A DNA stretch of 30,553 nucleotides from a virus, in the IMG/VR virus record IMGVR_UViG_3300047359_000427, positions 1-30,553 of that record. The stretch is one strand, 5' to 3'. The notes below the pieces were generated by a model that ran no database searches, was not told where the DNA came from, and saw nothing but the letters and a program-made list of their open reading frames with translations. Numbering within the stretch: position 1 is the first letter of the stretch; the number at the start of each line of letters is the position of its first letter. The position numbers were made by a program, and so were the translations under genes. Below are positions 5,036-21,337 of this stretch, in pieces.

Positions 5036-5337
5036 CACTTGTGTTTCTCCTTATCGTGAACATGTAACATAAAGAGAGCATAGTGCAACACTTTTAGTAA
5101 GTCAGCCCTATTCCTCCCACCTTTCTTTCCGTATCGCTGTGCATATTTCATTATGTTTCCGATACAAAAACCTTCACCGTGTCCACTGTCAATTATAAAT
5201 TCAGTAGACTGGTATTTGTTTAAACTATAATGTTGGTCGTAAGTGTTATCAATATAAGAGGCAAGTTCCTTAAGGGACTTGTCCTCGTTATATTTGTAGT
5301 CTATTGACTTGACTTTTTTACCGAACATATTAATCAT
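5035..5337 (-). CDS. DUF3310 / SaV-like small protein
   Basis: The 100-residue product has the DUF3310 signature: 'FIIDSGHGEGFCIGNIMKYA' followed by 'QRYGKKGG', 'RADLLKVLHYALFML' and a charged end. DUF3310 proteins are common in phages and sometimes labelled nucleotide-kinase-like, but no kinase motif is present, so no activity is assigned. The ATG at 5337 overlaps the end of the CobS-like gene; an alternative ATG lies three codons downstream. It is coupled to gp45 through TGATG. Confidence 0.75.
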   Translation of the reverse strand: MINMFGKKVKSIDYKYNEDKSLKELASYIDNTYDQHYSLNKYQSTEFIIDSGHGEGFCIGNIMKYAQRYGKKGGRNRADLLKVLHYALFMLHVHDKEKHK

Positions 5338-6565
5338 TATACTCTGAAGACTCTGATTCGTCTAGAGGGTTTTCAGCATTTAAATCAACCCCTGCATCAA
5401 TCTTAGAATAGAGGTCGAGGATACTATTTCTAGTCTCTTCGTCAAATCTTGAAATACACATTGTGATTGACTTGAGTTTGTCATTGAACATTCTGAATGC
5501 ATTGACAATGTGAACCAGTCTTCTAGTCGTAACAACATCATCTATTGCACCTTCATAGTAGGTTTTTCTGATAATGTCTGCCCAGTCAACAAGTTTGTGA
5601 CAGAACTCGGTATCAACTTCACCAGTCAATGCCATTTCTTTTTTAAGAATAGACCTTTCAGTAGTCACTGGTGGATATTCTTGTTGCATTGTGATTGCAA
5701 ATCTTTCCAACATTGCTTCATTCATGATTTGAGTCCCGATGAATTTACCATCGTCTGACCCTTGTCCTTTAGTGTTTGCAGTTGCAAGGATTGTGAAACC
5801 CTCTGCAGGTGAAACCCACTCACCAGTTTTCTTGATTAGGTATCCTTTACCTTCAAGAACTGATTGTAGACACATCAACTTGTTTGAACCAAGGTCGACT
5901 TCATCTAATAGAAGTACAGCACCTTTTCTCATTGCTTTGATAACTGGGCCTTCTCTGAAGAGAACGTCCCCACCTTGTAAAGTGTGACCACCCATCAAAT
6001 CATCTTCATCAGTCTCAATAGTAATATTGACCCTGTAAAGTTCTCTCTTCAACTGAGCGCAAGTTTGTTCAATCATTAATGTTTTACCATTACCACTTAG
6101 ACCAGTAACAAATACTGGAAAGAAGATTTTAGACTTAATGATATTCTTGATATCTTTGAAGTGTCCAAAAGGAACATAGTTTGACATCTTCTCGGGAATG
6201 ATTTTGACGTTGTCAAGTGAGTTGACAGCAGTGGTTTTTGCAGCCACTGGCATATTAGATGGATTTGCAATTGCAGGAATCGGTGCAGATTTTACAGGAG
6301 TTTGAACTTCGGGTTCATAACCACCATTGTAACCACTTACAACTGCATGTAGATTGAAGATACCGTTATCTTTAAAACTGTATCTTGATGATTTAACCCA
6401 GTATGGCATACCACCCACTTTATCAAAATCTTCTTTAACGAAGTTGGATTGATTAGGATATGCTGAGGTTAAACTCTCTAGGAACTCCTTCCTATCGGGT
6501 GTAAAATGAAAGTCCTTCCCGTCAATGACGATGGACTCGGTTCTGTCATAAGTTCTTTGATTCAT
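5330..6565 (-). CDS. cobS: MoxR/CobS-type AAA+ ATPase
   Basis: The 411-residue product has an N-terminal region of about 130 residues resembling the CobS N-domain, then an AAA+ core: Walker A GLSGNGKT at 155-162, Walker B 'LLLDEVD' at 218-224, and sensor/arginine-finger region 'TILATANTKGQGS' to 'NEAMLERFAI'. CobS normally powers the aerobic cobalt chelatase together with CobT and CobN. Marine T4-like phages carry cobS homologues, usually without the rest of the chelatase. Here the neighbour at 7126-9510 has a VWA domain, the usual partner of MoxR-type ATPases. A chaperone-like or remodelling pair is therefore as likely as cobalamin synthesis. It has its own sigma70-type promoter (6610-6639) and a good AAGGAG ribosome binding site. 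Confidence 0.85.
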   Translation of the reverse strand: MNQRTYDRTESIVIDGKDFHFTPDRKEFLESLTSAYPNQSNFVKEDFDKVGGMPYWVKSSRYSFKDNGIFNLHAVVSGYNGGYEPEVQTPVKSAPIPAIANPSNMPVAAKTTAVNSLDNVKIIPEKMSNYVPFGHFKDIKNIIKSKIFFPVFVTGLSGNGKTLMIEQTCAQLKRELYRVNITIETDEDDLMGGHTLQGGDVLFREGPVIKAMRKGAVLLLDEVDLGSNKLMCLQSVLEGKGYLIKKTGEWVSPAEGFTILATANTKGQGSDDGKFIGTQIMNEAMLERFAITMQQEYPPVTTERSILKKEMALTGEVDTEFCHKLVDWADIIRKTYYEGAIDDVVTTRRLVHIVNAFRMFNDKLKSITMCISRFDEETRNSILDLYSKIDAGVDLNAENPLDESESSEYND

Positions 6566-6926: not shown

Positions 6927-7126
6927 TGTGTCTTCTCCATAATTGTTTGTAAAGTGTATCTGTTATCCAGTAGTGTCACTTCAAAAGTGTCTAGGATATA
7001 ATCGTGTTCCACGATATAAGGTGCTTCCTCATTTCTTGATTGTAGAATCATAACCCTATTGGTAAAATCCCTGTAATCGTCTCTCTCTAAAATGAATGTC
7101 TCATTCATCATATATTTTGCTTCCAT
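6923..7126 (-). CDS. Small acidic protein, function unknown
   Basis: The 67-residue product is charged and rich in Glu, Asp and Arg, with an alternating hydrophobic pattern in the second half ('YILDTFEVTLLDNRYTLQTI') that suggests beta strands. Its ATG shares a base with the stop of the peptidase/VWA gene (TAATG at 7128-7124), so it is probably translated by re-initiation. No recognisable domain. Confidence 0.65.
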   Translation of the reverse strand: MEAKYMMNETFILERDDYRDFTNRVMILQSRNEEAPYIVEHDYILDTFEVTLLDNRYTLQTIMEKTQ

Positions 7127-9510
7127 TATGCTATCTCCTTAATGAATTCATTGGTTAAAAATCTTGAAGTTGTTTTTGATTTCTGATTTCTTTTGAATGC
7201 AGCCATCACTCTAGTTTTCTTTGCATCGATGAACTCTTCTCCAAGTTCATCATTTCCTGCAGTCCCGAGGGTGTTGGCTGAAGTAAGAAATAATTTGTTG
7301 TATCCATGAGCAGAGAATACTTTACCCTCTTTTCTAATCTCTCTCCAAGCAGTATCAACATCAATGTCTTTTCTCTTATACTCTTTAGTATGTTCAATGA
7401 CTGACCACAACTCTCTTTTACCATCCAAGACAAAGTATCCAGTAATGGTAACATTGCAAGTTTGTGATATCCACTCTAAAATATTTTGAGTTACTGTAAA
7501 GGAGTTTCTTCCAACATATCCAGTTGACTCTTCTAATGGGAAAGTCTTGTTTAGATATGGGTCGATTAAATCTCTAGACTGTTTGGTTCTCCAAGCATAT
7601 GAATCATCATCACAGTTCTTTTCTTGTTCAGCATAGTCTTGTTTCTCTTCTTGAGTCCTTGCAAGTAGGTCTGCTCTATGAGAGAACCCATCAGTGATAA
7701 CTGTTAGGATTGACTTCTCAATTCCATATTGTTTGTTGAACTCGGGAAGAAGTTTTCTAAGGAAAACTAGTGTTTGGTCTAATGGTGTTCCACCTAGTCT
7801 GAAGTTTCTAGGGTGGAAAGTTGTTTCCAAATCCCAGTATCTTCCATCTTGTTCCATAGTCTCAAACCCTTCATAGAACTCATTGTATGTTGTAAGTGCT
7901 TTCTCATAGTTTCTCCAACTCATGTTAGAGTTCCACATGTTAGAGTAGATGCAACCTAAGTAACTCATCATTTCTTTATGTTTTCTATTGTTCATTTCAT
8001 TAGATAGAATCTCAATTAGTTTACCACCGTTTCCATAGTAATCATCTTTTTTCTCTTCTGCTGTATAGTAACAGTCACTGAAAAGATAGATTCTATAAGG
8101 GATGTTAACTTTTCTACAGAACTCTGCAAGTATCATTGATTGTTCTAATAGGTCGGTGACTTGATTGTGAATTGAACCACTCCAGTCAAGTAAAACATTC
8201 AACCCGTGGTTTTTACCTTCGGGAAGATATGTAGCTCTTTTGAAAATGTCGTCAACGATTTGGTATTTTGCAAGTCTATTCATATCTAACTTACCAGTTT
8301 TACCACTGAATGCTTTCTTGGAAAGTTGTGCAGACTGTTTCATTTCAAATTCTTTTGCCATATGAGCAACAATCTTTTTGTTTTTGTTCTCAAGTTTTTT
8401 TGCAACAAAACAACCCCTCTGATAATTTTTAGTCCAAGTATCTTGTTGGGCATAATCGGGTTTAGTGTCTACATAGTTTTTCCACTCATTCAAAACTTCT
8501 TGGAATGAAATGACATTCTTCTTAATATCAGTATTCTTGAATATTGGTTTTAAGTTGATTGAAGTCTTAATAATATTTTCTTCTGAAAGAAATTGGTCTT
8601 CGTTATTGTGTGCATAGTGTTCAGTGATAGATTCTCTAGCACCATCTTCTTGGTCGTGGTATCCATTTGTTTGACCACCTTCTTTACCACCAGTAGACTT
8701 GACTTGTTCTTCTGCATCATCAGTGTCACCTTCTTGGTCGACCTCATCGTCTGCATCATCACCACTGTCGGTGTTTAACTCGGGAAGTGTATCCTCTTCT
8801 ATTTCATCTTCATCTGAATCTCCACCATCAGAAGATTCTTGAGATTCATTTTCCATTTCTTCCATTTCTGATTCTTCTGAATCGTCACCTTCTTCTTCGT
8901 CACCAAGGTCAAACATTTGAGGAACTAACATTTCATCATCTTCAGTCCTAGTCTCATTCTCTTTAGAATACTCATAGATTGCAGTAGCACATTCAACAAC
9001 CTCTTCCCAAGTTTTGCATGATTCTGCCATGTCTAGGAATTCTTGTTCTACTTTGTTGAACTTAAGACCAAGTCTTGAACCAACTTTAGTTTGTAAATTA
9101 ATTTTGTCAATCAATGAAAGGTCTGCAAGATTTCTTTTCTTAAGTTGGAAGAAGTCCATTTCCATCAATTCATTGTATGCAGTGAAGAAAGATTTTCTTA
9201 ATCCTTGGAATTTATTTTTGATTGCTTTCTCAATCCTAACATCTTCTACAACATTAAGATATCCTTTAAGTGTTCTATTCATTTCTAATGCAGAGTGTAG
9301 TCCTTCATAAGGAGTATTCAATGCATGTCCAACTTCATGTCCCATGAATAGGTCATAAAGTTCTGCAGACATATCTTCTTTAAAGATAGGACAAGCAAGT
9401 ATCCTATTCTTAACATCGAAGTATGCAGTTGGTATTTTCTTATGGACAACAGTGATGTTCTCTGTAGCCATGAGTTTTGCAAGTTGGTCTTTTTGGTTTT
9501 TATTTATCAT
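7126..9510 (-). CDS. Zinc-peptidase-like / VWA-domain protein (CobT-like organisation)
   Basis: The 794-residue product begins with a metallopeptidase-like domain containing HEVGH at 58-62 and a downstream Glu (about residue 89 in 'NVVEDVRIEK') that could be the third zinc ligand. Residues about 202-268 form an extremely acidic linker. A C-terminal VWA domain has the MIDAS motif DWSGS at 442-446. An acidic middle followed by VWA resembles CobT, the partner of CobS. The CobS-like ATPase lies 560 bases downstream with a matching promoter, so the two probably form a MoxR-VWA machine. The peptidase domain is not part of classical CobT. The ATG at 9510 has no ribosome binding site and lies six bases from the -10 box, suggesting a leaderless mRNA. 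Confidence 0.82.
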   Translation of the reverse strand: MINKNQKDQLAKLMATENITVVHKKIPTAYFDVKNRILACPIFKEDMSAELYDLFMGHEVGHALNTPYEGLHSALEMNRTLKGYLNVVEDVRIEKAIKNKFQGLRKSFFTAYNELMEMDFFQLKKRNLADLSLIDKINLQTKVGSRLGLKFNKVEQEFLDMAESCKTWEEVVECATAIYEYSKENETRTEDDEMLVPQMFDLGDEEEGDDSEESEMEEMENESQESSDGGDSDEDEIEEDTLPELNTDSGDDADDEVDQEGDTDDAEEQVKSTGGKEGGQTNGYHDQEDGARESITEHYAHNNEDQFLSEENIIKTSINLKPIFKNTDIKKNVISFQEVLNEWKNYVDTKPDYAQQDTWTKNYQRGCFVAKKLENKNKKIVAHMAKEFEMKQSAQLSKKAFSGKTGKLDMNRLAKYQIVDDIFKRATYLPEGKNHGLNVLLDWSGSIHNQVTDLLEQSMILAEFCRKVNIPYRIYLFSDCYYTAEEKKDDYYGNGGKLIEILSNEMNNRKHKEMMSYLGCIYSNMWNSNMSWRNYEKALTTYNEFYEGFETMEQDGRYWDLETTFHPRNFRLGGTPLDQTLVFLRKLLPEFNKQYGIEKSILTVITDGFSHRADLLARTQEEKQDYAEQEKNCDDDSYAWRTKQSRDLIDPYLNKTFPLEESTGYVGRNSFTVTQNILEWISQTCNVTITGYFVLDGKRELWSVIEHTKEYKRKDIDVDTAWREIRKEGKVFSAHGYNKLFLTSANTLGTAGNDELGEEFIDAKKTRVMAAFKRNQKSKTTSRFLTNEFIKEIA

Positions 9511-15958: not shown

Positions 15959-16005
15959 AGAGGGTTTTTGAAATAAAATAATTAAACTTTTTTAAGAAAC
16001 CCTCT
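15959..16005 (-). repeat. Inverted repeat in the gp55 leader
   Basis: A perfect 9-bp inverted repeat, AGAGGGTTT (15959-15967) and AAACCCTCT (15997-16005), with a 29-base AT-rich loop. One arm touches the start codon of gp55. In an mRNA the hairpin would occlude the start region. It has no T-run, so a regulatory role is more likely than termination. The remaining bases up to 16068 show only AT-rich sequence with palindromic ATATCATATGATAT-like tracts and no gene. Confidence 0.5.
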
Positions 16006-16068
16006 TGTAGAATTTGAAATCATATGATATTATTAATATGTCCCGAGGGGATATACTATAATAAGGGA

Positions 16069-16194
16069 TTAAGTGTAGGTTATAACTCTACTCTTTGCAG
16101 GATTATTAATTGCACGACTCATTCTATCGATATCACCAACGGCAAGTTCAAACATGCACCAACCTAAAATTGTATATATTATATAGTGTTTCAC
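16069..16194 (-). CDS. 41-residue membrane microprotein (GTG start), last gene of the cytochrome operon
   Basis: A GTG at 16194 overlaps the stop of the 68-residue gene in the classic GTGA arrangement, and AGGA lies about 11 bases upstream. The frame runs 41 codons to TAA. The product begins 'MKHYIIYTILGWCMFELAVG' (hydrophobic, one short membrane helix) and ends in a basic, Asn/Arg-containing tail. Size and topology recall small accessory subunits of respiratory oxidases such as CydX, but no sequence motif is shared, so this is only a comparison. The tight coupling is the main evidence. Confidence 0.55.
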   Translation of the reverse strand: MKHYIIYTILGWCMFELAVGDIDRMSRAINNPAKSRVITYT

Positions 16195-16397
16195 AATCTG
16201 TCCAATCCTACGTTGATTAAGTAAAAGGACAAGAGCATAAAACCGAAAACGAGGACTTGCACGACTGACATTATTGCAACTTGTTTCATTGGGTGAACTT
16301 CAACAATTTTCTCAATCCAAGATTCATCAGGTGAAAGGTTTACAACCTGTAGTATTTTCTTTTCAGTATCGGGTTTTGTAAACCAAGGAACGTACAT
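16191..16397 (-). CDS. 68-residue membrane protein next to cytochrome c
   Basis: The product has a soluble N-terminal part of about 40 residues ('WFTKPDTEKKILQVVNLSPD') and a single C-terminal membrane helix (about residues 44-63, 'VVQVLVFGFMLLSFYLI'). Its ATG shares a base with the cytochrome stop (TAATG at 16399-16395). The operon position makes it a probable partner, anchor or assembly factor for the cytochrome. No known family recognised. Confidence 0.75.
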   Translation of the reverse strand: MYVPWFTKPDTEKKILQVVNLSPDESWIEKIVEVHPMKQVAIMSVVQVLVFGFMLLSFYLINVGLDRL

Positions 16398-16840
16398 TAC
16401 TTTAACTCCACCTCTATAAACTTACCAATCATATTGATATCTGCATCACTCAACATTCCTGCTTGAGCCCACATAGTAGAAGACATATTACCGACTGTCT
16501 CTCTATTTTTATATGCATTGAGTTTACTTACAATGTAATCTTGTGATTGACCTGCAAGTTTAGGAAAGACTGCCATACCTTGACCTTCTGCACCGTGACA
16601 AGCTGCACACCCACTCCATAGACTTCTAATAGAAGAGAACTCATCTGCATTTGCAAGTGCATTTTTTCTTTGTTGTATTTCTGATGCAGTTCCGTTCAAT
16701 GCAACATAGTCAACATAACACTGACCAGTGCATGAAGTATTACTACTATATCCACTGTATTCTAAGTTTGGATATACTTTTGCAACAAAGAAAGTTGCGA
16801 TTGCAATACATCCTAATAGAGACATTCCTAATTCTTTCAT
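16397..16840 (-). CDS. Membrane-anchored class I cytochrome c
   Basis: The 147-residue product has an N-terminal hydrophobic helix (about residues 5-21) that could be a signal peptide or membrane anchor. A segment with two cysteines (C37, C41; CTGQC, not a heme site) precedes a single-heme domain. Heme attachment is CAACH at 78-82, in the context 'CAACHGAEGQGMAVFPKLAG' typical of c4/c553-type cytochromes. By spacing to 'LSDADI', M123 is the likely axial ligand. Such proteins carry electrons in the periplasm between the bc1 complex or dehydrogenases and terminal oxidases. The start is well supported by AGGAG. It sits in a coupled operon of tiny membrane proteins, which suggests the phage alters host respiration. 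Heme attachment would rely on the host Ccm machinery. Confidence 0.88.
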   Translation of the reverse strand: MKELGMSLLGCIAIATFFVAKVYPNLEYSGYSSNTSCTGQCYVDYVALNGTASEIQQRKNALANADEFSSIRSLWSGCAACHGAEGQGMAVFPKLAGQSQDYIVSKLNAYKNRETVGNMSSTMWAQAGMLSDADINMIGKFIEVELK

Positions 16841-16841
16841 A

Positions 16842-16916
16842 TTATACTCCTGTAAGTGAAAGTACTGATAAACAAAAAATAAACGTAAGTGTACCGATTT
16901 CTAATTTATCTCTCAT
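16842..16916 (-). CDS. Possible 24-residue membrane peptide
   Basis: An ATG at 16916 overlaps the stop of the 57-residue gene (ATGA), and the frame runs 24 codons to a TAA two bases before the cytochrome ATG. The product is a short charged start followed by one hydrophobic helix ('LTFIFCLSVLSLTGV'). No clear ribosome binding site of its own, so it would depend on re-initiation. It could instead be only the leader of the cytochrome gene. Confidence 0.4.
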   Translation of the reverse strand: MRDKLEIGTLTFIFCLSVLSLTGV

Positions 16917-17086
16917 AGGGATGCCCTCGATAGATACATTATCATAAATGGTAGTAAGAACGGAAGAGTCATCAGCACTAGAAATTCGATAGTGTCAACC
17001 AGTTTTCTCTTTACAGGTCTAACTTGATGGTTGACTTCTCTAGCTTTTCGCACCATGCTCTTCGCAAAAAAAGTTGCTGTGGTCAT
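16913..17086 (-). CDS. 57-residue membrane protein, first gene of the cytochrome operon
   Basis: The ATG at 17086 has TTTAGGAAAA as ribosome binding site. The product has a basic N-terminal half ('VRKAREVNHQVRPVKRK') and one C-terminal membrane helix (about residues 35-53, 'FLVLMTLPFLLPFMIMYL'). It heads a run of five overlapping or abutting genes that includes the cytochrome c. The 85-base gap upstream (17087-17171) is AT-rich and holds possible -10-like sequences but no clear promoter. No family recognised. Confidence 0.65.
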   Translation of the reverse strand: MTTATFFAKSMVRKAREVNHQVRPVKRKLVDTIEFLVLMTLPFLLPFMIMYLSRASL

Positions 17087-17171
17087 GGTTTTCCTAAAGT
17101 TAAGTTATAAGTATTTTGTATAATGTGATATAAATCTATGTTATACGCACATATTTAGACAAACTAAAATC

Positions 17172-20938: not shown

Positions 20939-20946
20939 TATTTATG
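20939..20946 (-). promoter_or_regulatory. Late-type promoter box CATAAATA
   Basis: CATAAATA on the minus strand, 20 bases before the ATG at 20918 and overlapping the end of the cysteine-cluster gene. The following ACTGTATAACGGAG closely matches the sequence after the box at 1915-1922. Confidence 0.55.
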
Positions 20947-21337
20947 TTTTTTTCATCACCGTTTTTGGTGAAATGGAATCTTTCTCAAATTCCTCTCTCC
21001 AAACTTTCATGTCACCATTTTTAACAAGTTGTATGAGTCGTTTGGATTTATCATAATCATACTCACCTGTTTTGTATTTTACCAATACTCCACACTCAAA
21101 GGTTCTGCAAGTGTATGGTCGTTTATCATATACTCTGCATATGCCATTTGATGTTAGGTTTGTGCAACCACCCCCATCAAAAGTTACACTATGTGTAAAG
21201 TCTTGACCTTCATATGAGGTAATATCCTTTACATCGAATAGTTCGTATTCTTTATCAAAGAGGTGGATTGTCTCATTCGGTTGTGAACAACACAAATTGC
21301 ACGATAGACAAATATTATTTTTCGATGACGAACTCAT
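20942..21337 (-). CDS. YkgJ-type cysteine-cluster (putative zinc/iron chelating) protein
   Basis: The 131-residue product has the CxxCxxCC cluster at C10, C13, C16, C17 and the family's second half 'GICRVYDKRPYTCRTFEC', i.e. C-x(n)-RP-x-x-CR-x-F-x-C. Members of this family (YkgJ/FliB-like, PF03692) are thought to bind zinc or iron; the enzymatic role is not settled. The ATG at 21337 overlaps the upstream gene by 23 bases. Phages of marine T4-like type often carry it. A supply of metal to the two Fe(II) oxygenases is an attractive but unsupported idea. Confidence 0.82.
   Translation of the reverse strand: MSSSSKNNICLSCNLCCSQPNETIHLFDKEYELFDVKDITSYEGQDFTHSVTFDGGGCTNLTSNGICRVYDKRPYTCRTFECGVLVKYKTGEYDYDKSKRLIQLVKNGDMKVWREEFEKDSISPKTVMKKT

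Follow-up and report, generated by a model that had tools for sequence, protein, structure and literature searches.

Does a T4-like virus of the ocean carry a cytochrome c that acts on the respiration of its host, and does that protein form one complex with the very small membrane proteins predicted around it? The locus that raises this question lies in a 30,553-base virus record (IMGVR_UViG_3300047359_000427), analysed here over its full length and referred to as the window. A preliminary description had read five linked frames in it, a haem c protein flanked by membrane proteins of 57, 24, 68 and 41 residues, as a small membrane complex placed between uvsW and gp55. Cyanophages carry genes for photosynthetic electron transport, e.g. 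plastocyanin, ferredoxin, and PTOX (a subject of PMC5082946), and to our knowledge most electron carriers described from phages so far belong to cyanophages and to photosynthesis. One passage of a 2020 study of oxygen-depleted waters describes carriers such as quinones or cytochromes as unobserved in its phages (PMC8115048), and reads for cbb3 cytochrome oxidase subunit I were reported from marine viral fractions (PMC3474794). The latter also represent a respiratory gene, but one for a different protein, reported from reads, and not a cytochrome c carrier in a phage locus. Searches of the open PMC literature listed no title or abstract on a phage-encoded cytochrome c carrier; subscription papers and bioRxiv lie outside that scope, and gene catalogues may list one without comment.

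The phage and its row of small genes

The virus of the window is T4-like, and its T4-like genes are encoded on the minus strand. PHROG matches back the helicase gene uvsW and the late sigma factor gene gp55, gp23 was identified by its match to phage major capsid proteins and lies in the same record as the cytochrome gene, and gp18, gp20, gp22, gp46, and gp47 are presumed from position. By gp23, the nearest isolates are Methylophilales phage Melnitz (67%) and the Pelagibacter phages HTVC008M (66%) and Mosig (65%). A tree built from 15 gp23 rows groups the window with eight related viral records, of which one is identical to it, in a fully supported clade separate from Melnitz, HTVC008M, Mosig, and two cyanophages. 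The corresponding gap in Mosig contains one 36-residue frame, by eye unlike all of the micro-proteins. Elsewhere in the window, the frames at 5330-6565 and 7126-9510 presumably encode a MoxR/CobS-like ATPase and a large CobT-like protein, and 20942-21337 a small cysteine-rich protein that we take, by eye, to resemble the YkgJ-type CxxCxxCC protein.

The gene order is uvsW, a 148-aa gene, p57, p24, the cytochrome gene, p68, p41, and gp55. Both of the flanking genes named in the preliminary description are thus present, but the 148-aa gene also stands between uvsW and p57. The tight linkage described for the five frames holds: three of the junctions overlap, by 4, 1, and 4 bases, and the remaining one is a 1-base gap. 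The features of the row are as follows (hydropathy is the best 19-residue value; dN/dS values are medians).

17618-17172, minus strand: 148-aa gene, matching phrog_471 (E 2.9e-6), between uvsW and p57
17087..17171, minus strand: conserved, promoter-like upstream region, in which TCTAAATATGTGCGTATAA lies some 73 bases ahead of p57; aligned in 24 loci
17086-16913, minus strand: p57, predicted small membrane protein, conserved in 140 viral contigs; hydropathy 2.08, dN/dS 0.34
16916-16842, minus strand: p24, predicted very small membrane protein, following p57 in relatives and backed by a shifted-frame control; hydropathy 1.72, dN/dS 0.26
16397..16840, minus strand: c-type cytochrome of 147 aa with a predicted membrane anchor; hydropathy 2.00, dN/dS 0.25
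16397-16191, minus strand: p68, predicted small membrane protein with a C-terminal hydrophobic segment and an HPMxQ motif, aligned and found in 562 viral contigs; hydropathy 2.39, dN/dS 0.15
16194-16069, minus strand: p41, small protein with a GTG start and a borderline hydrophobic N-terminus, found in relatives; hydropathy 1.41, dN/dS 0.39

All five frames are real genes under purifying selection, and they stay in the same order in relatives, so that the check on small-frame conservation came out in their favour. Read in frame, pN/pS was 0.45 for p57, 0.39 for p24, 0.36 for the cytochrome, 0.26 for p68, and 0.54 for p41 (25, 25, 15, 25, and 24 distinct sequences, respectively), whereas the two shifted readings of these alignments gave 0.75-0.98 and 1.14-3.11. 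Their membrane character is less uniform than had been claimed, p41 having by its hydropathy a borderline predicted segment only. Because a hydropathy of at least 1.6 is attained by 31 of the 189 ATG-initiated frames that the window contains in the range of 20-80 aa, hydropathy alone is weak evidence.

Profile and structure searches, which the preliminary description had proposed, were informative for the cytochrome (below) and gave little for its neighbours. For p57, no match was found in the phage collection at E up to 10, and the solved structures gave four weak matches (E 0.6 or worse). For p68, no solved relative was found, 15 rows gave no PHROG match at 0.1, NCBIfam matches were weak (E 0.04 or worse), and 128 weak matches in the phage collection (127 Staphylococcus, 1 Leptospira; those listed with E 1 to 6) were judged to be chance. 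Single weak PHROG matches paired phrog_7722 with p41 (E 0.021), phrog_26244 with the cytochrome (E 0.12), and phrog_25216 with p68 (E 0.28). None of the five proteins matched PADLOC at E up to 1.

The region before p57 contains [TA]CTAAATA in all 24 loci compared and TGCGTATAA in most; the exact joint motif CTAAATANNTGCGTATAA occurs in 71 of 195 loci, a set that includes many repeats of the same contigs. The element before p57 differs from TATAAATA, found before structural genes, which has exactly five copies on the minus strand of the window, including those just before the putative gp18, gp20, and gp22; late control of the row is thus no more than a possibility. A sigma-70 scan gave results at chance level, and the terminator scan found no terminator. 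Between p41 and gp55, an inverted repeat was noted by eye at 15959-16006 (arms AGAGGGTTT and AAACCCTCT, about 30 bases apart); it is absent from the terminator-scan output.

A cytochrome with a virus-specific N-terminus

The identification of a predicted haem c protein with CAACH and a probable axial Met was borne out. The protein scores above the cut-off of Pfam Cytochrom_C (PF00034, E 1.7e-8; 36.1 bits against 21.3) and below those of the models for cbb3 oxidase subunit III (PF13442, 24.5 against 27 bits; TIGR00782, 19.2 against 179.95). By its profile match, its CxxCH with a distal axial Met, and its predicted fold, it belongs to the class I c-type cytochromes. An alignment of 71 rows (59 viral, 12 cellular) was used for an AlphaFold2 model with a mean pLDDT of 86.8; an earlier model from 19 viral rows was poor (pLDDT 54.8) and was not used. 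The model comprises an N-terminal helix, two further helices (residues 40-49 and 52-65), and then the cytochrome fold, residues 21-40 being less sure (block means 65-66). The features of the protein, all on the minus strand, are:

16763..16837, minus strand: N-terminal helix in the model, residues 2-26, predicted membrane anchor; hydropathy 2.00
16732-16718, minus strand: CxxxC (C37, C41) ahead of the hairpin, in 59 of 59 viral rows and 0 of 12 cellular rows
16646..16723, minus strand: helical hairpin in the model, residues 40-65
16595..16609, minus strand: haem motif CAACH, residues 78-82, with C78, C81, and H82 in 71 of 71 rows
16472..16474, minus strand: probable axial Met123, in 71 of 71 rows

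The anchor predicted in the preliminary description is thus consistent with both the model and hydropathy. Structure comparison, covering the haem domain (residues 66-147), placed it on T. paradoxus c546/556 (8yts, with model residues 67-147; Z 14.3, rmsd 1.4, 81 aligned residues), followed by V. parahaemolyticus c554 (2zzs; Z 12.7), P. nautica c552 (1cno; Z 12.6), and the c4 chain of a bc1-cbb3 supercomplex (Z 11.7). By sequence, the best matches among solved structures were 1h1o, a cytochrome c4 (7.9e-16), and V. parahaemolyticus c554 (3.3e-15). The viral protein therefore shares with c546/556, c554, c552, and c4 the haem-domain sequence, the fold, and the columns of CxxCH and axial Met, and among the sequences compared its haem domain best matches the c554/c552/c4 type. 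It departs from them at the other end: the soluble c554 and c552 consist of the haem domain only, the 12 cellular rows lack the CxxxC hairpin, and the viral protein adds about 65 N-terminal residues, a hydrophobic helix predicted to stay in the membrane and the hairpin. Among the sequences compared, this N-terminal part appears to be virus-specific. Invariant in 59 of 59 viral rows are C37, C41, Y45, V46, G50, W75, W124, and Q126, and beyond the anchor the protein is acidic (pI 4.6-5.8 across 19 sequences).

Cytochrome cy/CycM of alphaproteobacteria has an N-terminal anchor and one haem domain and acts as a tethered shuttle; the viral protein, with its predicted helix, would be similar in layout. 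The 71 rows had no PHROG match, and the model had no BFVD match, at E up to 0.001. A variant in L318 and L323 (cytochrome at 2393 and 3983, respectively) has a different, signal-peptide-like N-terminus, stands behind an AhpC-type peroxiredoxin gene, and is possibly a soluble form.

Distribution in viruses and cells

Among the 2.9 million contigs of IMG/VR, 261 relatives of the cytochrome were recovered with the window protein as query and at least 481 with a profile, in scans that see only contigs with certain peptide patterns and in which many contigs are near-copies. A tblastn search of 50,697 phage records found none at E up to 0.001 and one unconvincing match (E 4) at the loosest limit. 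The carriers amount to more than one phage species: gp23 was matched in 14 of 26 viral records, with identities from 100% down to 37% (G422) among the cytochrome carriers, and several carriers, one of 130 kb, gave no gp23 match. The viral cytochrome c family is real and widespread, and it occurs often but not always within the row of micro-genes.

The cytochrome might have been a recent, single-gene acquisition from a host, and as far as the searches reached there was no sign of this. A scan of genomes from 84,980 species, which sees only stretches matching one of two short peptide patterns, returned eight relatives, four near full length and four covering the haem domain only. The four near full-length matches all lie on contigs of metagenome-assembled genomes (MAGs) with a phage gene order (nrdB, cytochrome, glutaredoxin, and others); for L085, a 121-kb contig, this order was read from the last 7.7 kb. 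A second search covered 398 genomes of the phylum of the genome holding L087 (filed as a Burkholderiales MAG), with mostly up to nine candidates scored per genome. Matches at E up to 1e-14 were found in 15 of these, from residue 63 on only, residues 1-62 being covered by none of the 15; the best scored 73 bits, as against 241-292 bits in 11 viral records. Recent host capture is accordingly rejected as far as tested, the near full-length matches of these searches being confined to MAG contigs with phage gene order and the others to the haem domain. Three contigs with the phage gene order, L083, L084, and L086 (NYUU01000108.1, NHBP01000001.1, and NYUU01000003.1), are filed in Synechococcus and Planctomycetaceae MAGs and are probably mis-binned phage DNA.

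A phage 5-aminolevulinate synthase is reported in PMC11480375. A link of the cytochrome to haem supply drew no backing from this enzyme: of 26 viral records, many of them fragments, none reached its cut-off, and one had a match below it.

Gain and loss between uvsW and gp55

The preliminary description had suggested looking for the same operon in other viral genomes, and it was found there in part. In 80 loci anchored on p57, the cytochrome gene is present in 39 (35 with genes visible beyond it, 4 truncated where the contig stops) and absent from 34, the remaining 7 being too short; in 6 of the 34, the contig stops within p68 or shortly past it. Upstream, uvsW is found in 80 of 80, and a gene of the p68 family (an 87-aa counterpart included) is present in 68 of 69 informative loci. 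This counterpart, with a p68-like C-terminal membrane segment, replaces p68 after the cytochrome gene in L030 (2538-2798) and its near-copies and in G001 near 64700 (L198).

The close relative L108 shows the difference between presence and absence most directly, with flanks identical to those of the window at 92.5% over 2168 bases and 91.6% over 1245 bases and with no cytochrome gene.

16400..16933, minus strand: block absent from L108, which has about 113 bases instead, holding only the end of p57 and p24

For a uvsW tree, 49 of the 80 p57 loci qualified by having 300 or more aligned residues, an uninterrupted frame, and either p68 or gp55 within the stretch, and removal of near-copies left 26, of which 9 have the cytochrome gene and 17 do not. 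Its presence requires 7 changes on this tree, 6 of them forced by starred branches; with shuffled labels the mean was 7.6, and values as low as that observed came up in 204 of 500 shuffles. Since 7 changes is about what shuffling gives, presence of the cytochrome gene does not follow the ancestry of its neighbour. A tree of the cytochrome itself drew on 141 of 146 loci; discarding near-copies left 82, and leaving out 4 that lie at contig ends gave a tree of 78 rows. Genome place requires 16 changes on it, as against a shuffled mean of 28.5, and at least 4 place changes are forced for uvsW-gp55, on few alignment columns for so many rows. The cytochrome gene therefore behaves as an exchangeable auxiliary gene, often gained and lost at a few favoured places among phage genes.

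Other genome places and neighbours

Among the 146 cytochrome loci (142 viral, 4 on MAG contigs), 45 occupy the uvsW-gp55 place and 76 have nrdB and/or glutaredoxin as a neighbour; a further 19 are in other places, and 6 sit at the end of a contig. Many lack p57, p24, or p41. A p68-family gene directly adjoins the cytochrome gene in 66 of the 146, at two different genome places; conversely, 44 of 80 loci anchored on p68 have no cytochrome gene in the stretch covered (L012 and L015 do have one), and several of those without it are ordered nrdB-p68-glutaredoxin. Eighteen larger records, picked for holding the cytochrome or p68, include 11 with the cytochrome and 15 with a p68 match (one weak, E 9e-4), and the two genes are adjacent in 6 of the 8 having both. 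A second family of small membrane proteins, p56 (EGTKxI...Y..K.GK..TA), was found in 10 contigs, directly before the cytochrome gene in 7. Examples are:

L068 3829-3996: p56
L085 5840-6001: p56
L321 3811-3978: p56
L370-L379: p56 contigs

Small membrane genes thus recur beside the cytochrome gene, and none of those tested is obligatory.

Several neighbourhoods hold further genes of redox or iron metabolism. A ferredoxin-like frame in L379 (1046-1381; two CxxCxxC clusters by eye) follows p41-like and p87-like frames and directly precedes a p56-like frame; no cytochrome was found there, and the frame may encode a different electron carrier of viral origin in a like neighbourhood. A ferritin-like gene follows the cytochrome gene in L028 (4457-6614), L042, L280, and L315. 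In L028 and L315 a class-V aminotransferase (cysteine-desulfurase-like) also lies downstream, to which L028 adds an IscU-like frame (by eye); this neighbourhood suggests a viral iron-sulfur or iron-storage cluster. In L323, the AhpC-type peroxiredoxin gene lies upstream of the cytochrome gene.

What the cytochrome might do

That ocean phages carry their own cytochrome c suggests that they draw on or redirect the energy supply of the cells they infect. The reading preferred here, to which we give about an even chance, is that the protein shuttles electrons in the periplasm as a virus-specific carrier tethered to the membrane and so keeps host respiration going during infection, with the micro-proteins as a separate unit. 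Host machinery would export the cytochrome and attach haem c, and the anchor, judged from the anatomy of the protein, would hold the haem domain in the periplasm at the inner membrane. Electrons could then be carried within the host respiratory chain, most likely from a bc1-type donor to a terminal oxidase, such that proton pumping and ATP supply might continue during the shutdown of host gene expression. The small membrane proteins p57, p24, p68, and p41 would form a unit that is more constant than the cytochrome gene often inserted into it; they may steer the same membrane and do not need the cytochrome. It speaks for an electron carrier that the nearest folds, those of c546/556, c554, c552, and c4, belong to small periplasmic electron carriers, one of them the c4 of a bc1-cbb3 supercomplex; the haem domain with its axial Met, the predicted N-terminal membrane helix, the purifying selection, the 481 viral contigs, and the repeated gain or loss point the same way. 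Two observations count against a role in respiration: roughly half of the informative p57 loci do not carry the cytochrome gene, and the glutaredoxin and, singly, peroxiredoxin or ferritin-like neighbours would fit a role in stress equally well.

Small c-type cytochromes can serve cytochrome c peroxidase, and the viral protein might likewise feed a periplasmic peroxidase, or work with phage thiol proteins, and so shield the infected cell from oxidants. The 76 of 146 loci beside nrdB and/or glutaredoxin, the peroxiredoxin gene of L323, the ferritin-like gene of L028, and the invariant CxxxC of the viral rows are all in keeping with such a partner in redox stress, which we nonetheless hold to be unlikely. 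Glutaredoxin and ribonucleotide reductase are cytoplasmic, but the haem domain should be periplasmic, and p68 alone is found between nrdB and glutaredoxin as well, so that this may be merely a permissive site. On the sequence evidence, the protein could donate electrons either to an oxidase or to a peroxidase. Another use, and a decidedly improbable one, would be interference, in which the phage protein would displace the carrier of the host by competition or occupy the haem-attachment system, damping or redirecting respiration, e.g. to exclude other phages. Patchy presence is what is expected of genes under changing selection, small membrane proteins adjoin the cytochrome, and W75, W124, C37, and C41 are invariant and virus-specific; however, the haem ligands are retained without exception, although a protein that merely blocks could strictly do without them, and PADLOC had no match for the five proteins.

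The idea of a single membrane complex of the cytochrome and all of the micro-proteins survives in part: the genes do form a compact unit with a conserved upstream region, on one strand and with overlapping frames, p68 adjoins the cytochrome gene at two genome places, and p56 directly precedes it in 7 of 10 contigs. An obligate five-part unit, however, sits poorly with the 34 of 80 p57 loci and 44 of 80 p68 loci that have no cytochrome gene in the stretch covered, and with the many cytochromes found elsewhere with no p57, p24, or p41, and we regard one complex of all of these proteins as very doubtful; it may form in phages that have the full set of genes, but not as a general arrangement. It is enticing to speculate, at long odds, that the cytochrome is the core of a virus-invented respiratory module, in which the CxxxC hairpin and the invariant tryptophans would dock it to small membrane proteins of the virus, such as p56 and either p68 or the 87-aa counterpart, and together these would open an electron route outside the normal carrier of the host. 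Finally, a passenger gene of no benefit, spread by recombination alone, would account for the unclustered presence on the uvsW tree and for the several genome locations, but with a median dN/dS of 0.25 and with haem ligands and other residues fully conserved in 59 viral rows, this is extremely improbable.

Significance

If the preferred reading of a tethered electron carrier is adopted, the cytochrome family plausibly joins the known phage electron-transport genes. The cyanophage genes are likewise phage-encoded parts of electron transport, but they serve photosynthesis in cyanobacteria; unlike those systems, the viral cytochrome c belongs to T4-like phages with no cultured close relatives. 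Near-identical pairs of phages with and without the cytochrome gene, of the types of the window and L108, offer a natural comparison, and with a cytochrome c family encoded by hundreds of viral contigs, the idea that viruses control heterotrophic respiration would become open to direct tests.
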